This document shows, in pieces, positions 46,912 through 54,854 of a stretch of 64,000 nucleotides of DNA. A program made the translations under genes and the position numbers. Under the pieces are notes generated by a model. That model was not told where the DNA came from. It made no database searches and was given only the letters and a program-made list of their open reading frames with translations. The DNA is from Fodinibius roseus (GTDB taxonomy: Bacteria; Bacteroidota; Rhodothermia; Balneolales; Balneolaceae). The DNA lies in NCBI RefSeq assembly GCF_900129315.1, contig NZ_FQUS01000009.1, positions 62,001 to 126,000 of the forward strand, read 5' to 3'. Each line of letters begins with the position of its first letter. Position 1 is the stretch's first letter.

Positions 46912-48381
46912 TTATTCAGAAACCAATCTGAAATCGCCAAAACCGGACGTTGCCCTGAATATAAATTCCCGGTTGGGATAGCTCCATATTTCAACCGTCG
47001 AACCGTTGGGTGGAAATTTGCGCTCGATATTTTGCGGGGGACCAAATTTAATATAAATTTCTCCCTGGTCGCTCTCGTAGCCAATCCTGTTGCTGGTAGA
47101 AAAATTTTGATAAGCGTAGTCAATGCGCCGGTAGTATTCGGCCATCAGCTCATTGTATTCGGTATCGGGCGTAGGATCTTTCTTTTTCCAAAATGCTCTG
47201 AATTTGCGTTCCCGTTCGTCCTGTGATCCTTCGGAAAGAGAATCAAGGGTTTCTTCATCGACAATATACCGCAGCATGTCGATGGCCATATCCAGGCTGA
47301 GCAGGCTCCGGGGCATATCAATCCACATCGAACGATAGGTCGTCCTGGAAACCGTTGTATCATTTTGATCCCGGATTGTCAGCTGATAAGAGGCATTCGG
47401 AAACGTGCTGTTGGGAACCTCAATCAAGGCATAGGTAAAGCCATCCGCTTCCCGGGCCAGCCGAAGCCTGTTTTCGTTTTCGCCGCTTGAAACCAGCTGC
47501 GGTCTCAGATTCGCCTGTATTTTACTGTTATCAAGCTTTTCAACAAAAACTTCTTTCCCTTTACTGGTATCTTTACCGGAAATGTTGAGTTCTCTTATGT
47601 TTACGGTATAGGAATCGCTCGGATCGTAGCCCGGGATATAAGCCAGTGCACGAAAGTCACTGCCATATTTCACATTGTCCCCCATACTCATTAATGTCAG
47701 CTGCTTTTCCCCCCGCTGATCCGTATACAGCTCTTCACCCAGTATCACATTCCCCACTTCCATGTCTCGGTAGGAATCAAGGCGCACCGTGCGCGTTCTC
47801 GAATTTCGGGGATCACTGCGCTCACCGCGCTTCATTTGCAAGACATAGGTATATATGCCGGGCTTCAGTTCCATCCCGATATGTCCGTGCAGGAACATTG
47901 ATTCGGTCTGCGTTTGTTCATAGGTTTCAGCATATGCCGTATCTTCCCAAAAAGAACGTTCCGCCGGCTCAAGACGCTCGACCGAAATATCGCTGTCTCT
48001 TTTTTTGAGTTGTGCCTCACTGGAGTTAAAGACTTCCATACTTAGATTTACCGGACTGAAAAAAGCTTTTTTATTATTGTTTTTTGCAGCACCGTCTTGT
48101 TTCAGCTTTTTAAACGGGAGGTAGCGATACGAGAAGCTGTAAACCGAGGCAAAGGTAACGGTTTCATCTGTGTTGCCGGGCAATACCAGGAAGTCAAAAA
48201 ATTGAGAAGGGCGTTGATCGGCCAGGCTTAACTTCTGATATTTGGCACTGCGTTGCGCTTGCAGTTCAGGTGCTAAACATAATACCAACCCAACCACCAG
48301 TGCGACCGTCGTAAGATAATTTATCTGTTTCACAGCATTTTTTTGTTTATTAAAACAGCCTTTGAACTCGTTTCCCTCCAA
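46912..48381 (-). CDS. GWxTD-domain protein
   Basis: A 489-aa secreted protein with a signal peptide (about 15-43, ending LQAQ). The C-terminal 130 residues are the GWxTD domain known from FCB-group proteins: FRAFWKKKDPTPDTEYNE and YIKFGPPQNIERK. The N-terminal part is beta-rich (about 45-350) and probably periplasmic. Function unknown. It leads the operon GWxTD-pdxA-methyltransferase-ftsE. Confidence 0.85.
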   Translation of the reverse strand: MEGNEFKGCFNKQKNAVKQINYLTTVALVVGLVLCLAPELQAQRSAKYQKLSLADQRPSQFFDFLVLPGNTDETVTFASVYSFSYRYLPFKKLKQDGAAKNNNKKAFFSPVNLSMEVFNSSEAQLKKRDSDISVERLEPAERSFWEDTAYAETYEQTQTESMFLHGHIGMELKPGIYTYVLQMKRGERSDPRNSRTRTVRLDSYRDMEVGNVILGEELYTDQRGEKQLTLMSMGDNVKYGSDFRALAYIPGYDPSDSYTVNIRELNISGKDTSKGKEVFVEKLDNSKIQANLRPQLVSSGENENRLRLAREADGFTYALIEVPNSTFPNASYQLTIRDQNDTTVSRTTYRSMWIDMPRSLLSLDMAIDMLRYIVDEETLDSLSEGSQDERERKFRAFWKKKDPTPDTEYNELMAEYYRRIDYAYQNFSTSNRIGYESDQGEIYIKFGPPQNIERKFPPNGSTVEIWSYPNREFIFRATSGFGDFRLVSE

Positions 48382-48483: not shown

Positions 48484-50118
48484 ATGAATCCATCTGATTC
48501 TAAACAGTCCCACGCGGACGGCGTAAAAGCGCTGATTAAAGAGATCAATAAACAGGAAGCCGTAATAAAGAAGGGCGGGGGAGAGAAACGGATCAAAAAG
48601 CAGCATGACAAAGGAAAGCTGACGGCACGCGAGCGGATAGATCTCCTCCTGGATGAAGATTGCCGGTTTCATGAACTGGGGTTGTGGGCCGGTTATGAAA
48701 TGTATGAAGAGGAGGGAGGGTGTCCCGCCGGCGGCGTTGTGACCGGTATTGGCCGTGTATCGGGACGCGATTGCGTGATTGTTGCCAATGATGCCACGGT
48801 GAAGGCCGGGGCCTGGTTCCCGATCACTGCTAAAAAGAACCTGCGAGCCCAGGAAATTGCGATTGAAAACCATCTTCCGATTCTTTATCTCGTAGATTCC
48901 GCGGGCGTATACCTGCCCATGCAGGATAAAATTTTTCCCGACAAAGATCATTTCGGACGTATTTTCCGAAACAATGCTGTTATCAGTGCCCGGGGCATCC
49001 CCCAGATTGCCGCTATTATGGGCAGCTGTGTGGCCGGGGGGGCCTACCTGCCGATTATGAGTGATGAGGCGCTGATTGTAGACGGTACCGGCAGCGTCTT
49101 CCTGGCCGGCAGCTATCTGGTCAAGGCGGCTATTGGCGAAGAAGTGGACAATGAGACGCTGGGCGGCGCAACGACGCATACGGAAATCAGCGGGGTTACT
49201 GATTATAAAATGAAGGATGATGAGGAATGTCTCCATACCGTCCGCGATCTGGTGGATAAACTTGGGCCTTTTGATACCGCGGGATTCAACCGCAAAGAAC
49301 CGGTGGCTCCCTCCCGCGATGTGACCGAAATACTGGATGCATTCCCGGACGACCGCACCAAACCCTATGATATGACCAACGTACTGGAGTGTATCGTGGA
49401 TAAGGGGTCCTTTACCGAATTTAAGAAGGGGTACGGGCAGACACTTATTACAGGCTATGCGCGGGTGGATGGCTGGAGTGTGGGCCTCGTGGCCAATCAG
49501 CGTAAAATTACCAGGACAAAACAGGGAGAGATGCAGGTTGGCGGGGTTATCTACTCCGACTCGGCCGACAAAGCGGCCCGTTTTATCATGAATTGCAACC
49601 AAAAAAAGATTCCGATTGTTTTTTTGCAGGATGTTACCGGCTTCATGATTGGCAAGCGAAGCGAACACGGGGGCATTATCAAGGATGGGGCCAAGATGGT
49701 CAATGCGGTCTCCAACAGCACCGTGCCCAAGATTACGATTGTCGTGGGCAACAGCTACGGGGCCGGGAACTACGCGATGTGCGGGCGGGCGTATGATCCG
49801 CGGTTTATGTATGCCTGGCCTTCAGCACGGATTGCGGTAATGGGCGGCTCCCAGGCCGCCAAAGTGTTGACGCAGATCCGGGTATCCTCCCTCGAAAAAC
49901 AGGGAGAAGAGATCACCGAAGAGGAGGAGCAGGAGATTATGAAAGAGATCAGTGAGCGATATGAGCACCAGACGGATGTGCGTTATGCCGCTGCCCGGAT
50001 GTGGGTGGATCGCATCATTAATCCCATTAAGACCCGCGATCATATTTCCCGCGCGATCCGGTACGCCAACCATAACCCGGATATGGACGAATTTAAGACG
50101 GGTGTGATACAGGTTTGA
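48484..50118 (+). CDS. Acyl-CoA carboxylase carboxyltransferase (beta) subunit
   Basis: A 544-aa carboxyltransferase that moves CO2 from biotin to an acyl-CoA. Two crotonase-like domains carry the oxyanion-hole glycines: MGSCVAGGAYLPIMSDEALI and VGNSYGAGNYAMCGRAY. The blocks VYLPMQDKIFPDKDHFGRIF and FLQDVTGFMIGKRSEHGGII are shared by methylcrotonyl-CoA and propionyl-CoA carboxylases; I lean to methylcrotonyl-CoA. The biotin-carrying alpha subunit is not adjacent. Confidence 0.9.
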   Translation: MNPSDSKQSHADGVKALIKEINKQEAVIKKGGGEKRIKKQHDKGKLTARERIDLLLDEDCRFHELGLWAGYEMYEEEGGCPAGGVVTGIGRVSGRDCVIVANDATVKAGAWFPITAKKNLRAQEIAIENHLPILYLVDSAGVYLPMQDKIFPDKDHFGRIFRNNAVISARGIPQIAAIMGSCVAGGAYLPIMSDEALIVDGTGSVFLAGSYLVKAAIGEEVDNETLGGATTHTEISGVTDYKMKDDEECLHTVRDLVDKLGPFDTAGFNRKEPVAPSRDVTEILDAFPDDRTKPYDMTNVLECIVDKGSFTEFKKGYGQTLITGYARVDGWSVGLVANQRKITRTKQGEMQVGGVIYSDSADKAARFIMNCNQKKIPIVFLQDVTGFMIGKRSEHGGIIKDGAKMVNAVSNSTVPKITIVVGNSYGAGNYAMCGRAYDPRFMYAWPSARIAVMGGSQAAKVLTQIRVSSLEKQGEEITEEEEQEIMKEISERYEHQTDVRYAAARMWVDRIINPIKTRDHISRAIRYANHNPDMDEFKTGVIQV

Positions 50119-50340: not shown

Positions 50341-51687
50341 ATGAAATCAGTACGAATATTTACTTTTTGTTTCCTCTTTTTGATGGCGGCGTCACTGCAG
50401 GGGTGGTCTCAGCCAGCGGAGGCTTTTGAGAATGTCATTATTCATACGGCAGATGGCGAGGTCGTCGACGGGGGTACGATCGTATGGAGGGACGGTATCA
50501 TCCGTTCGGTGGGTCCGGAGGAAGAGGTGACCATTCCCTTTGATGCCTATGTGAGAGACGGGGGCGACAGCCTGCATGTCTACCCGGGCTTTATTGACGG
50601 GATGGCCTTGTGGGGGAGTCCCGATACCGATGGCCCGGGCGGCACTCCTGACGAGCCCGGCAATCCGGGATATAAGCGGGCGGGTATTCAGCCCCAGCGG
50701 TATCCCTCGGAGCATCTTAAGGCCAATGACCAGGCGCTGGAAAAAGCAGCTGAAATGGGTTTTACGACGGCTGCATTGGGACTCAAGGGACAGATGCTTC
50801 CAGGGCAGGTCGATCTCTTTTTCATCAGGGGCAAGCAAACCCCGGATAACCTGCTGGAGGAGGGAGTGGGCGTGCTGGCGCAGTTTAAGGAAGCAAAGGG
50901 CCCGGCCTATCCCTCTACGACGATGGGCCTGATGGCTCAGTTTCGGCAGCTGTTTTATGATGCGGAAGCCCTGCATCGGCAGCAGGAGTATTTCGCCTCG
51001 GTTTCATCCAGCTATCCCGCCCCGCAAAAGGAGAAGGAACTGGAAGCCCTATACCCGGTGATGAAGCAGAAGCAGCCGTTCTTTTTTGTTGCGGATTCCA
51101 AAGAGAATATAGAGCGAGTGTTATGGCTGCAGGATGAACTCGGGTTTGATATGGTCCTTGTCTCCGGTAAAGAAGCCTATACGAAGGCGCAGGAACTGCG
51201 CCGGCGGGAGATCCCGGTGTTGGCCGGTATTGATCTTCCGGAAAAGCCGGACTGGATGTCAACCGATGATGATGGTAAGGATGAAAAGGACAGGGACACG
51301 CAACCAGCGGAGGTGACCGAAGAGATGCAACACTTCCGGGAACGGCAGCAACAGGCGTACAAAGAGCGTATAAACAATATCAATACCCTGAGGGAGTCTG
51401 GGGTCAGGGTCGGATACAGCTCAAACGGATTCAATACCTCCGCTATACGAAAGAACTTGCTTATCCTGAAGGAGGAATCAGGTATGAATGAGTCGCAGCT
51501 ATTAAATATACTTACCCAGTCGACTGCGGATATCCTGGGCTATGGTCAGCGGCTCGGTGATTTGGAAGAGGGACGTTTGGCCAATTTTACGGTCTTTGAC
51601 AACCCCTTTACCGAAGAGAAGGCCAAAGGACTTTTTTCCGTATCCAACGGGGAAGTCACAGAGCTTGATTCAGAATCTTCTAATTAG
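50341..51687 (+). CDS. Secreted amidohydrolase-fold protein lacking the HxH metal motif
   Basis: A 448-aa protein with a signal peptide (1-23) and an amidohydrolase-superfamily barrel: GGTIVWRDGIIRSVG is the beta-sandwich strand, YPGFIDGMALWG is the position of the PGFIDxHxH motif, and ILGYGQRLGDLEEGRLANF the closing strand. Where active enzymes have H-x-H it reads Gly-Met-Ala (87-89). The later catalytic His/Asp sites are not evident either. It is probably not a classical metal hydrolase. First of three tandem paralogues. Confidence 0.75.
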   Translation: MKSVRIFTFCFLFLMAASLQGWSQPAEAFENVIIHTADGEVVDGGTIVWRDGIIRSVGPEEEVTIPFDAYVRDGGDSLHVYPGFIDGMALWGSPDTDGPGGTPDEPGNPGYKRAGIQPQRYPSEHLKANDQALEKAAEMGFTTAALGLKGQMLPGQVDLFFIRGKQTPDNLLEEGVGVLAQFKEAKGPAYPSTTMGLMAQFRQLFYDAEALHRQQEYFASVSSSYPAPQKEKELEALYPVMKQKQPFFFVADSKENIERVLWLQDELGFDMVLVSGKEAYTKAQELRRREIPVLAGIDLPEKPDWMSTDDDGKDEKDRDTQPAEVTEEMQHFRERQQQAYKERINNINTLRESGVRVGYSSNGFNTSAIRKNLLILKEESGMNESQLLNILTQSTADILGYGQRLGDLEEGRLANFTVFDNPFTEEKAKGLFSVSNGEVTELDSESSN

Positions 51688-51733
51688 CTCTTGAGTGTAG
51701 AGTAGAATTAAAATAGATGAAGATGATAATTAT

Positions 51734-53140
51734 ATGAAGAAGATTGTACTACTGTTTTTCGCACTTTTGTTGAGTCCGGCCGGTTACGCGCAGGAAAAGG
51801 GATCGGTACTCATCAGCGGGGGGACACTCATAACGATCACCGACGGGAATAAAGAAAATACCGATCTGCTTATAGAAGACGGGGTAATCACCGAAATCGG
51901 CCGGGATCTTTCGGCCCCGGACGGGGTGGAGACCATTGATGCCTCCGGCAAGTATGTGATGCCGGGCATTGTTGACGCGCACTCCCATATTGCGGCCGTG
52001 GACGTCAACGAGTGGACGCATCCGGTGACGGCTGAAGTCACCATGGAGGAGTCGATCGATCCCAATGACATCAATATGTACTGGGCGCTGGCCGGCGGGG
52101 TTACGAGCATTCACCTGATGCACGGATCGGCAAATGTGATCGGGGGACAAAATGAAACGCTGAAACTGCGATACGGGGGAGATATGGACGAGCTGCGGTT
52201 TGAAGGCGCTCCCCGAACGATCAAGTTTGCGTTGGGTGAGAATCCCACGCGGGTACACGGACAGCGGTTTAATGTACAGCCCCGCACCCGGATGGGGGTT
52301 GAGCAGATTGTTCGCGATCATTTTGATGCCGCCTTCGACTATCAGCGTAATCGCCGTGAATACCTGGAAGCCAGGGAGGCGTACGAAGAGGGAGCGCGCG
52401 GGGAGGCCCCGGTACCGGTAGCCAAAAATGCGCGTATGGAAGTACTGGTTGATATCCTGGAAGGGGATATCCGGGTGCATTGTCATTCGTACCGGGCCGA
52501 TGAAATTATGATGCTCATGCGGGTATTCGACGATTACGGTATTGAAAATTACACCTTCCAGCATGCCAACGAAGCATTTAAGGTTGCTCCCGAACTCCGC
52601 AAAAACGGCGCTTATACCTCCGTCTTTTCGGATTGGTGGGCGTATAAGTTTGAAGTGTATTATTCAACAGCATTCAATGCTTCTATCCTCAATGCCAATG
52701 GCGTCATCAACAGCATCAATTCCGACAGCGGAGAGCTTATTCGTCACCTGAATCACGAAGCCGCCAAGACGGTTCATTACGGCGGTACGTCGAAACAGGA
52801 TGCCCTCAGAATGATTACGATTAACCCCGCCATGCAGCTCGGGATCGATGACAAGGTGGGGAGTATCGAGGAAGGAAAGCACGGTGACATAGCTATCTGG
52901 AGCGGTCACCCGCTGAGTATCTACAGCATGGCAGAAGCGACATTTGTAGACGGGAAAAAATATTTTGACCGGGACAAGGATGCGGACGATATGAGGCTGG
53001 AGGTTAACCCGGAAGAGGATTTTGAGCATGCAGGCCGGCGCTGGTATGAAGAGCATGGCCGCCGCGGGGGGACCTGTTTGCGGGGCGCCGAAGTCCGTTT
53101 TAACGAACAGGGAATGCATTTTCGACACCAAACGAGGTAA
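51734..53140 (+). CDS. Secreted amidohydrolase (imidazolonepropionase-like), metal site intact
   Basis: A 468-aa protein with a signal peptide (1-19, ending GYAQ) and the amidohydrolase metal site: PGIVDAHSHIAA (His83, His85), VHCHSYRADE (about His246), FQHANE (about His277) and the Asp in NSDSGE. The C-terminal NPAMQLGIDDKVGSIEEGK is the closing strand. It probably hydrolyses a cyclic amide or peptide-like bond in the periplasm. It is 47 bp after the HxH-less paralogue and 22 bp before the next one, so the three should be one operon. Confidence 0.85.
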   Translation: MKKIVLLFFALLLSPAGYAQEKGSVLISGGTLITITDGNKENTDLLIEDGVITEIGRDLSAPDGVETIDASGKYVMPGIVDAHSHIAAVDVNEWTHPVTAEVTMEESIDPNDINMYWALAGGVTSIHLMHGSANVIGGQNETLKLRYGGDMDELRFEGAPRTIKFALGENPTRVHGQRFNVQPRTRMGVEQIVRDHFDAAFDYQRNRREYLEAREAYEEGARGEAPVPVAKNARMEVLVDILEGDIRVHCHSYRADEIMMLMRVFDDYGIENYTFQHANEAFKVAPELRKNGAYTSVFSDWWAYKFEVYYSTAFNASILNANGVINSINSDSGELIRHLNHEAAKTVHYGGTSKQDALRMITINPAMQLGIDDKVGSIEEGKHGDIAIWSGHPLSIYSMAEATFVDGKKYFDRDKDADDMRLEVNPEEDFEHAGRRWYEEHGRRGGTCLRGAEVRFNEQGMHFRHQTR

Positions 53141-53162
53141 GCAATATCAGAAAAGATTTAAT

Positions 53163-54485
53163 ATGATGAGAACGTTTTTGAAATTCTTTATTTCAGGATT
53201 CCTGCTGGTTGTTATTGTGGTAACGGCGGGAGTCGCACAATTTACCGAGAAGGCTGAGTTCGGCAAGTTTGCTATTACCAATGCGACCATACACACGGTA
53301 TCGGACGGTGTTATTGAACATGGCGTGGTGCTTATTAACGGGGAAACGATTGAGTTTGTCGGTAAAAACGCCAAAATTACCTCCGACTACCATCGTATCA
53401 ATGCCGCCGGGAAACACCTGTACCCGGGATTTATGGACGCCGGCACCCAGCTGGGACTCCAGGAGATCGGGGCCGTAGCCGTAACGAAAGACCAGGCCGA
53501 GCTGGGGGAGTTTAATCCGCATGTCCGGGCCTTTACGGCCATTAACCCCAGCAGCGTAAGCATACCCGTTACGCGCGTGAACGGCGTAACGCATGTCGTT
53601 TCCCTGCCGGTATCGGGACGCCTGTCGGGAAAGGCGACGCTTATTGATCTCTACGGTTATTCGCCCGATTCCATGGCCGTATCACCCAATGCAGCGCTCC
53701 ACTTGAACTGGCCGACCGCCCAAAAGGGAGGGGCGGGCGATCAGCGCAGCGAGGAAGAGGTGGAAAAGGCTTATAAAAAGAATCTGAAGGAGCTGAATGA
53801 GTTTTGGGACCGGGCCGTCTTCTATGATGATATGATGATGTCCTATGAGGAAGGATCCGCTGATAAAGAAGCACCGGACACCCATAAGAAATTAGAAGCC
53901 ATGCGCGAGGTCCTTAGCGGGGATATACCGGTCATGATTTCTGTGGACCGTAAACAGGATATCCTGAATGCTCTTGAATGGACCAAAAAGCATCCGGATG
54001 TTCATTTTATTTTAGCGGGGGTACAGGAAGGATGGCGTGTCGCCGATGAAATTGCAGAGGCGGGATTACCCTGTCTGGTGTCTACGCTTTTTACCCCGGA
54101 GCGGGCATATGACAATTACCAGCGGCCGTATCAAAATCCGGCTGAATTACATGAGGCGGGGGTGAAAGTAGCTATTGCCACCGGTGAGATCGAAAATGTT
54201 CGCAACGCTCCTTACCATGCGGGTTATGCAGCAGCTTACGGCCTGGGCAAAGAAGAGGCTTTAAAAGCCATTACCCTGAATGCTGCTGAAATTTTTGATG
54301 TAGCTGACAGGCTGGGCAGTATTGAAGAGGGAAAGCAGGCCAACCTGTTTCTATCAGATGGTGATCCATTCGAGCCCACCACTCACATTGATCAGGTTTT
54401 TATACGTGGATACAAAATTCCGATGGTAAGCCGCCACTCCCAACTCTATGAAAAATACCTCAACCGCGGGGCGGTCGAACATTAG
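53163..54485 (+). CDS. Secreted amidohydrolase-fold protein lacking the HxH metal motif (second)
   Basis: A 440-aa paralogue. Signal anchor at about 3-25, ending AGVAQ. The PGFIDxHxH position reads PGFMDAGTQLGL (Ala93-Gly94-Thr95), again without histidines; the closing strand NAAEIFDVADRLGSIEEGKQ is kept. ATG 53163 (or 53166) was chosen; an open frame extends upstream into the previous gene but begins with non-conserved sequence. Third and last gene of the cluster. Confidence 0.75.
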   Translation: MMRTFLKFFISGFLLVVIVVTAGVAQFTEKAEFGKFAITNATIHTVSDGVIEHGVVLINGETIEFVGKNAKITSDYHRINAAGKHLYPGFMDAGTQLGLQEIGAVAVTKDQAELGEFNPHVRAFTAINPSSVSIPVTRVNGVTHVVSLPVSGRLSGKATLIDLYGYSPDSMAVSPNAALHLNWPTAQKGGAGDQRSEEEVEKAYKKNLKELNEFWDRAVFYDDMMMSYEEGSADKEAPDTHKKLEAMREVLSGDIPVMISVDRKQDILNALEWTKKHPDVHFILAGVQEGWRVADEIAEAGLPCLVSTLFTPERAYDNYQRPYQNPAELHEAGVKVAIATGEIENVRNAPYHAGYAAAYGLGKEEALKAITLNAAEIFDVADRLGSIEEGKQANLFLSDGDPFEPTTHIDQVFIRGYKIPMVSRHSQLYEKYLNRGAVEH

Positions 54486-54821: not shown

Positions 54822-54854
54822 ACCCGCACCGGCGTGAAAACCGGTGTGGGTTTT
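54822..54854 (+). terminator. Strong rho-independent terminator
   Basis: ACCCGCACCGG (54822-54832) pairs with CCGGTGTGGGT (54841-54851) across an 8-nt loop with one G-U pair, followed by TTTTAT. No annotated gene ends just before it except the 24-codon ORF, which is why that ORF is listed. Confidence 0.9.

Follow-up and report, generated by a model that had tools for sequence, protein, structure and literature searches.

Three tandem amidohydrolase paralogues in Fodinibius roseus

A stretch of 64,000 nucleotides from Fodinibius roseus (contig NZ_FQUS01000009.1, positions 62,001 to 126,000), hereafter called the window, carries three consecutive genes on one strand, which we designate A, B, and C (Table 1). 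They are separated by 46 (A-B) and 22 (B-C) bases and encode amidohydrolase-fold paralogues, of which only B retains a complete set of metal ligands. From the comparison of this locus with its relatives, we propose that the three products very probably work as one machine. For gene C, a start at the TTG codon at position 53022 was rejected as a mechanical over-extension of the open reading frame (ORF), and the ATG codon at position 53163 was used instead.

The first-pass annotation had recognised three tandem paralogues with an amidohydrolase fold, and this assignment was confirmed. All three proteins exceed the gathering cut-off of the Pfam family Amidohydro_1 (25 bits), with 32 bits for A, 65 bits for B, and 40 bits for C, and they share the same best solved relative, 3OOQ (phmmer E values of 1.1e-10, 1.6e-58, and 4.3e-33 for A, B, and C, respectively). 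The latter is an amidohydrolase of Thermotoga maritima MSB8, whose title gives no function. None of the proteins reached the cut-offs for Xaa-Pro dipeptidase (NCBIfam equivalog NF051886; B 56.2, C 46.5, and A 21.4 versus 500 bits), N-acetylglucosamine-6-phosphate deacetylase (TIGR00221; 44.9, 41.2, and 17 versus 225.65 bits, in the same order), or imidazolonepropionase (TIGR01224; 53.4, 41.2, and 12.8 versus 298.15 bits). Amidohydrolase was the sole label that the family libraries used returned for A, B, C, and fusion proteins of approximately 1000 amino acids (aa). Signal peptides had also been assigned to all three proteins. By a crude hydropathy rule, a hydrophobic N-terminal segment is present in each protein of the window and, in the first set of loci, in 35/35 A, 33/34 B, and 33/33 C proteins; to this extent, the proteins look exported.

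Only the middle protein retains the metal ligands

Alignment to 3OOQ identifies six ligand residues in B, namely the two His of the HxH motif on strand 1 (x, any residue), Glu on strand 4, His on strands 5 and 6, and Asp on strand 8, and the same set is found in 3OOQ. The motifs HSH, VHCHS, and FQHAN had previously been noted as present in the middle protein only. This is correct, although Glu169 and Asp331 had been missed. Likewise, the HxH motif is indeed lost in both outer proteins, but the replacing tripeptides had been read one residue off, as Gly-Met-Ala and Ala-Gly-Thr instead of Met-Ala-Leu in A and Gly-Thr-Gln in C. The remaining ligand positions of A and C in the window are occupied by non-ligand residues, too.

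Table 1. Features of the A-B-C locus and its surroundings, with positions in the window
Feature	Position	Strand	Basis or remark
Gene A (P0001), exported-looking, amidohydrolase-fold paralogue, metal ligands absent	50341-51687	+	448 aa; Pfam score, 3OOQ match, alignment
A, Met88-Ala-Leu90 (DGMAL) at the HxH place	50602-50610	+	alignment to B and 3OOQ
Gene B (P0002), exported-looking, full ligand set, predicted catalyst	51734-53140	+	468 aa; Pfam score, 3OOQ match, alignment
B, His83-Ser-His85, HxH of strand 1	51980-51988	+	alignment
B, Glu169, strand 4 ligand (GENP)	52238-52240	+	alignment to 3OOQ
B, His251, strand 5 ligand (VHCHS)	52484-52486	+	alignment to 3OOQ
B, His277, strand 6 ligand (FQHAN)	52562-52564	+	alignment to 3OOQ
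B, Asp331, strand 8 ligand (NSD)	52724-52726	+	alignment to 3OOQ
B, C-terminal tail	53010-53140	+
Gene C (P0003), exported-looking, amidohydrolase-fold paralogue, metal ligands absent	53163-54485	+	440 aa; Pfam score, 3OOQ match, alignment
C, Gly94-Thr-Gln96 (DAGTQ) at the HxH place	53442-53450	+	alignment to B and 3OOQ
Hairpin and T run 3' of C, resembling a terminator	54822-54851	+	hairpin scan; 11 pairs
GWxTD-domain protein gene	46912-48381	opposite	two genes upstream of A
Carboxyltransferase gene	48484-50118
Ldh_2 dehydrogenase gene	from 55221		3' of C

The ligands were counted in two censuses. The first comprised 338 domains aligned from fetched loci, 20 of which belong to the B' and C' types described below. 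The second covered the named set, that is, the best 80 loci among at least 593 stretches from at least 510 relatives in a species-genome collection, and left out domains shorter than 350 aa. The two overlap by at least three loci (L073 = L159, L075 = L160, L143 = L215). All six ligands were present in every B domain (109/109 and 80/80, together 189/189). By contrast, more than two of the six were found in no A domain (0/110 and 0/72, together 0/182) and in no C domain (0/99, one of them a fragment from L087, and 0/73, together 0/172). Thus, the conservation of the trio and of its missing residues, which had been proposed as a check, was borne out, and what had been seen in a single genome holds as a general rule. 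HxH does persist in a few outer members, which had been named beforehand as evidence against the proposal, namely in the fused A domains of L074 and L080 (2/182) and in the C domain of L179 (1/172). Since the other four ligands are gone in all three, these domains look like decay intermediates rather than active enzymes. Isolated ligand histidines are more common than the full motif; among the 182 A domains, the first His is present in 23 and the second in 24. As no A or C domain exceeds two of six ligands, the sequences suggest that the loss was stepwise.

Gene order, fusion, and distribution

A search with A gave a match at 1e-5 in 57 of 58 genomes, including that of F. roseus, in some of them through paralogues only. 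All 11 genus-mates had a match at 2.2e-178 or better. A profile of B matched 226 of 392 Bacteroidota genomes at an E value of 1e-60 or better; matches near 1e-70 to 1e-95 are taken to be mostly the B' paralogue, as checked in a few genomes.

Linkage was counted in the named set and in a Bacteroidota set of 60 loci, which were picked non-randomly from the best B matches listed, at about one per genus. The 49 loci L039-L087 had been chosen via A and are hence biased; they were left out of these counts. Gene A lies 5' of B on the same strand in 60/60 Bacteroidota loci and in 78/80 named loci, and in the two others the contig starts too near B. Gene C follows 3' of B in 51/60 and 74/80 loci, respectively. 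Throughout both sets, every locus holding members of the trio has them on one strand and in the order A, B, C.

A and B form one ORF in 30 of the 60 Bacteroidota loci (991-1142 aa), with A being separate in the other 30, and in 68 of the 80 named loci. With separate ORFs joined by a plus sign, the architectures in the named set were AB + C (59 loci), AB (6), A + B + C (6, one with an additional weak match downstream), A + BC (4, the B-C fusions lacking A in the same ORF), B + C (2, each truncated where the contig begins), AB + C with A matched in two pieces (2), and a single-ORF ABC fusion of 1388 aa (1, L226). The named loci carry the labels of twelve phyla. Three loci have no label, and some labels of metagenome-assembled genomes (MAGs) may be wrong; one MAG labelled Gammaproteobacteria is nearly identical to Gemmatimonadota MAGs.

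Selection and phylogeny

The ratio of nonsynonymous to synonymous substitutions (dN/dS) was determined for four close pairs of genus relatives, the genes of the window itself being too distant from every relative for this measure. It amounted to 0.062-0.095 for A, 0.021-0.033 for B, and 0.034-0.040 for C. With a dS of 0.87-1.51, these values are rough, but none of them suggests decay. Strong purifying selection acts on A and C, and neither is decaying.

In a tree of 70 rows (67 of them different) across phyla, whose root was not inferred, A (support 100/100), B (100/100), and C (100/99) each occupy one side of a branch, as do B' and C' (100/100 each), and 3OOQ stands beside B (94/88). One alignment, which combined B-C fusions with rows of B or C alone, seemed to match the C rows to the B half of the fusions and was discarded. 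Because A, B, and C separate in a tree that spans phyla, the paralogues either split before the sampled phyla or spread jointly over them.

Predicted structures and conservation around the former metal sites

The AlphaFold model of a natural A-B fusion (L159, 988 aa, 43 aligned sequences) reached a predicted local distance difference test score (pLDDT) of 87.8 and a predicted template modelling score (pTM) of 0.85. For a protein of two barrels, a pTM of this size speaks for a confident placement of A on B in the model. According to the listed secondary structure, strands and helices follow the same order in both barrels, and an additional beta-rich stretch (approximately residues 448-545) closes A. 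Judged by length, this stretch is absent from the shorter A of the window. Separate A proteins of at least 560 aa were observed in 23/30 cases in the wider Bacteroidota set versus 3/35 in the first set, and no Pfam match was obtained inside the extra C-terminal stretch in the four A-bearing proteins with this stretch that were scanned. The B domain of L159 superimposes on 3OOQ with a Z score of 44.7 (370 aligned residues, root-mean-square deviation 2.2); 3OOQ is the closest solved relative of B in both sequence and fold. The next hit is isoaspartyl dipeptidase (Z 24.3), closely followed by prolidase-like and carboxypeptidase-like enzymes.

The first-pass annotation had assigned substrate binding or regulation to the inactive subunits. 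To see whether such binding might use the former active sites, we compared the conservation near the metal site with the domain mean and with sets of positions slid along the domain. In B, the surroundings of the site scored 0.796 versus 0.634 for the domain, and only 0.9% of the slid sets were as high. The corresponding values were 0.446 versus 0.462 for A (62% of slid sets as high) and 0.476 versus 0.539 for C (87%). Special conservation around this site is thus confined to B, and the data do not support a role of the old pockets of A and C in binding substrate. Conserved residues of A lie elsewhere, with YP and RQ around a PSTxMG loop, and those of C comprise G, E, E, and G of the first loop, an invariant Arg, and several Pro; the alignment is less certain in these conserved loops of A and C. 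At the sequence level, this distribution favours contact surfaces over pockets, although A and C might have a pocket formed by other residues.

Flanking genes, other features, and second tandem pairs

The carboxyltransferase gene ends 222 bases 5' of A. Among 1159 flanking ORFs from the loci, the 25 largest clusters were examined and yielded no functional clue. The largest cluster occurs in 25 loci, on either strand and either side. Consistent upstream neighbours on the same strand encode a carboxyltransferase (15 loci) and a DUF3810 protein (9 loci), each local to some relatives. Since the cluster of the DUF3810 gene (L157:2000-3076) lies upstream on the same strand in all nine loci, at a median distance of 79 bases, its members may be co-transcribed with the trio. 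Five terminator-like hairpins were counted in the region, which is no excess over the shuffle mean of 5.3.

Where the C-terminus of B is free, a Cys occurs within the last 45 residues in 136 of 185 proteins. Cys density is 0.018 per residue in the tail versus 0.0045 in the body of B, and certain tails are rich in His. We considered whether Cys250 of B pairs with a tail Cys in a disulfide. The two are associated (odds ratio 5.9 over 184 rows, uncorrected for relatedness), but 15 and 37 rows break the association, and the idea was rejected.

A second kind of tandem pair, B'-C', was found in 10 loci (L088-L096, L098) of relatives from the same genus, family, and order. As in the trio, an active-looking, HxH-bearing amidohydrolase (B') is followed by a degenerate paralogue (C'), in this order in 10/10 loci. 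B' differs from B by a Thr at the strand 4 ligand position. No A-type gene was seen beside the pair in the fetched stretches, and the pair was not detected in the F. roseus genome itself. The tree made a second, separate origin of a dead partner in C' look likely; however, a single clade of C and C' was not rejected (approximately unbiased test, p-AU 0.076). The F. roseus genome also contains two tandem amidohydrolase genes of another type, each with HxH (L097:3476-6107, contig C52). As candidates for B', they matched B weakly (45 and 51 bits) and showed gaps at the later ligand positions, and they were dropped from the census.

An exported complex with a single catalyst as the most probable explanation

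In our preferred explanation, to which we assign a probability of about 0.74, a series of ancient duplications of one 3OOQ-like amidohydrolase gave rise to A, B, and C, whose products would assemble into a stable exported complex at a ratio of 1:1:1 or a multiple thereof. This ratio is suggested by the single-chain ABC form. B would be the only catalyst, a metal hydrolase with a site of HxH, Glu, His, His, and Asp that presumably operates outside the cytoplasm. A and C, having lost their metal sites, would act as obligate structural partners, which assemble with and stabilise B, and their conserved loops would probably gate or complete its substrate entrance. The single locus had prompted the proposal of a hetero-oligomer in which one subunit is active and two are not. 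This proposal gains indirect support from the fixed order and strand, the purifying selection, the A-B, B-C, and A-B-C fusions, and the fold model of the A-B fusion, and the occurrence of separate, AB + C, A + BC, and ABC forms is a strong argument for a complex. As a first guess, B might cleave a small peptide or another amide, by analogy with its wider fold neighbours, the isoaspartyl dipeptidases, prolidases, and carboxypeptidases.

Several observations weigh against such a complex. C is missing from the fetched stretch in 9/60 and 6/80 loci (L189, one of these, is truncated by the contig end), and C is thus dispensable in some lineages. In L156, counted among the 51 loci with C, this gene sits 3.9 kb away, and about 1 kb separates A from B in L104. 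Gene fusion can serve co-export or dosage instead of binding. The distances of A, B, and C correlate with Spearman coefficients of 0.48-0.76, uncorrected for species history. Moreover, the model of a natural B-C fusion (L212, 893 aa), which bears on the presumed contact of B with C, reached a pLDDT of only 77.8 and a pTM of 0.51 with 17 sequences, the B half being four deep. Finally, no biochemistry on the trio was found in the literature searched.

A and C might instead be independent exported binding or carrier proteins, whose old barrel pockets hold the same ligand and hand it over to B, with no lasting complex being formed; fusion would then secure joint export only. The barrels have been kept, and the conserved PSTxMG, GLxE, and EGWR loops could fit such a role. 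Nevertheless, we consider it unlikely, as the surroundings of the former sites are not extra conserved in A and C, unlike in B, and as all three domains share one ORF in L226. A little less probable still is catalysis by A or C itself, either at a rearranged metal site or by a metal-free mechanism. One or two ligands persist in some A and C domains, the strand 5 position holds Glu in 34/45 and Asp in 7/45 fused A domains of the first census and His in 28/73 C domains of the named set, C has fixed two Glu in the loop that follows strand 1 (98% and 99%) as well as an Arg (100%), and the Asp preceding the HxH place is kept in 89% of A. However, His is absent from the 28 best-conserved columns of A and from those of C, which consist mainly of Gly, Pro, Ala, and other structural positions. 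That A and C are functionless, decaying duplicates would explain the lost ligands, but their frames are open, their sequences are conserved in loci labelled with twelve phyla, and dN/dS is below 0.1 in all four pairs for each gene; we regard this possibility as practically negligible.

The complex with B as sole catalyst can also be extended to a more specific, joint reading, which we put forward tentatively and rate at somewhat less than even odds. The trio would then represent an undescribed, multi-phylum class of exported three-barrel amidohydrolases that form obligate asymmetric heterotrimers. Of the paralogous barrels, one would be live and two dead, and the dead ones would contribute loops that complete or gate the site of B. 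Under the same assumption, the trio would have been fixed before the phyla arose or have spread between them as a unit.

Relation to known systems and significance

The amidohydrolase 3OOQ is known here as one chain type only, which sets it apart from the trio. Dihydropyrimidinase-related proteins (CRMPs) are animal proteins with the amidohydrolase fold that lack the enzyme activity and assemble with each other. They match B only partially, in its N-terminal part, and, unlike A and C, are not known to share an operon or a polypeptide with an active enzyme. A precedent for a dead amidohydrolase-type chain required by an active partner is the aspartate transcarbamoylase-pseudo-dihydroorotase dodecamer of Pseudomonas aeruginosa, in which an inactive dihydroorotase-like chain is reported to be needed for partner activity (PMC7053772). 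There, the active partner is a transcarbamoylase, whereas in the trio the active B is paralogous to both dead chains, and the dead chains are of two different types. As A, B, and C are all amidohydrolase paralogues, the trio may work alike but is not a member of that system. The bile-salt metallo-hydrolase of PMC13081902 is reported to consist of one Amidohydro_3 domain and a C-terminal domain and belongs to a different family.

By title or beginning of the abstract, no earlier description of such a trio was found in the literature searched, most subscription papers lying outside it. Based on its sequences, we rate the trio as a probable case of an enzyme/pseudoenzyme hetero-oligomer, which is a known kind of assembly, in a version that appears to be new. 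As the only label of these proteins is amidohydrolase, expressing one gene of the trio alone may show nothing. If the obligate heterotrimer is real, its activity would be invisible to an assay of a single subunit or of the simple active site. Should the three proteins form one enzyme, they would stand for a large family, as yet uncharacterised, in Bacteroidota, Planctomycetota, Acidobacteriota, Gemmatimonadota, and others, whose members would have to be produced as a set to find the substrate. With its separate, doubly fused, and triply fused forms, the family would offer a test case for how an enzyme and its duplicates become a hetero-oligomer with one working site.

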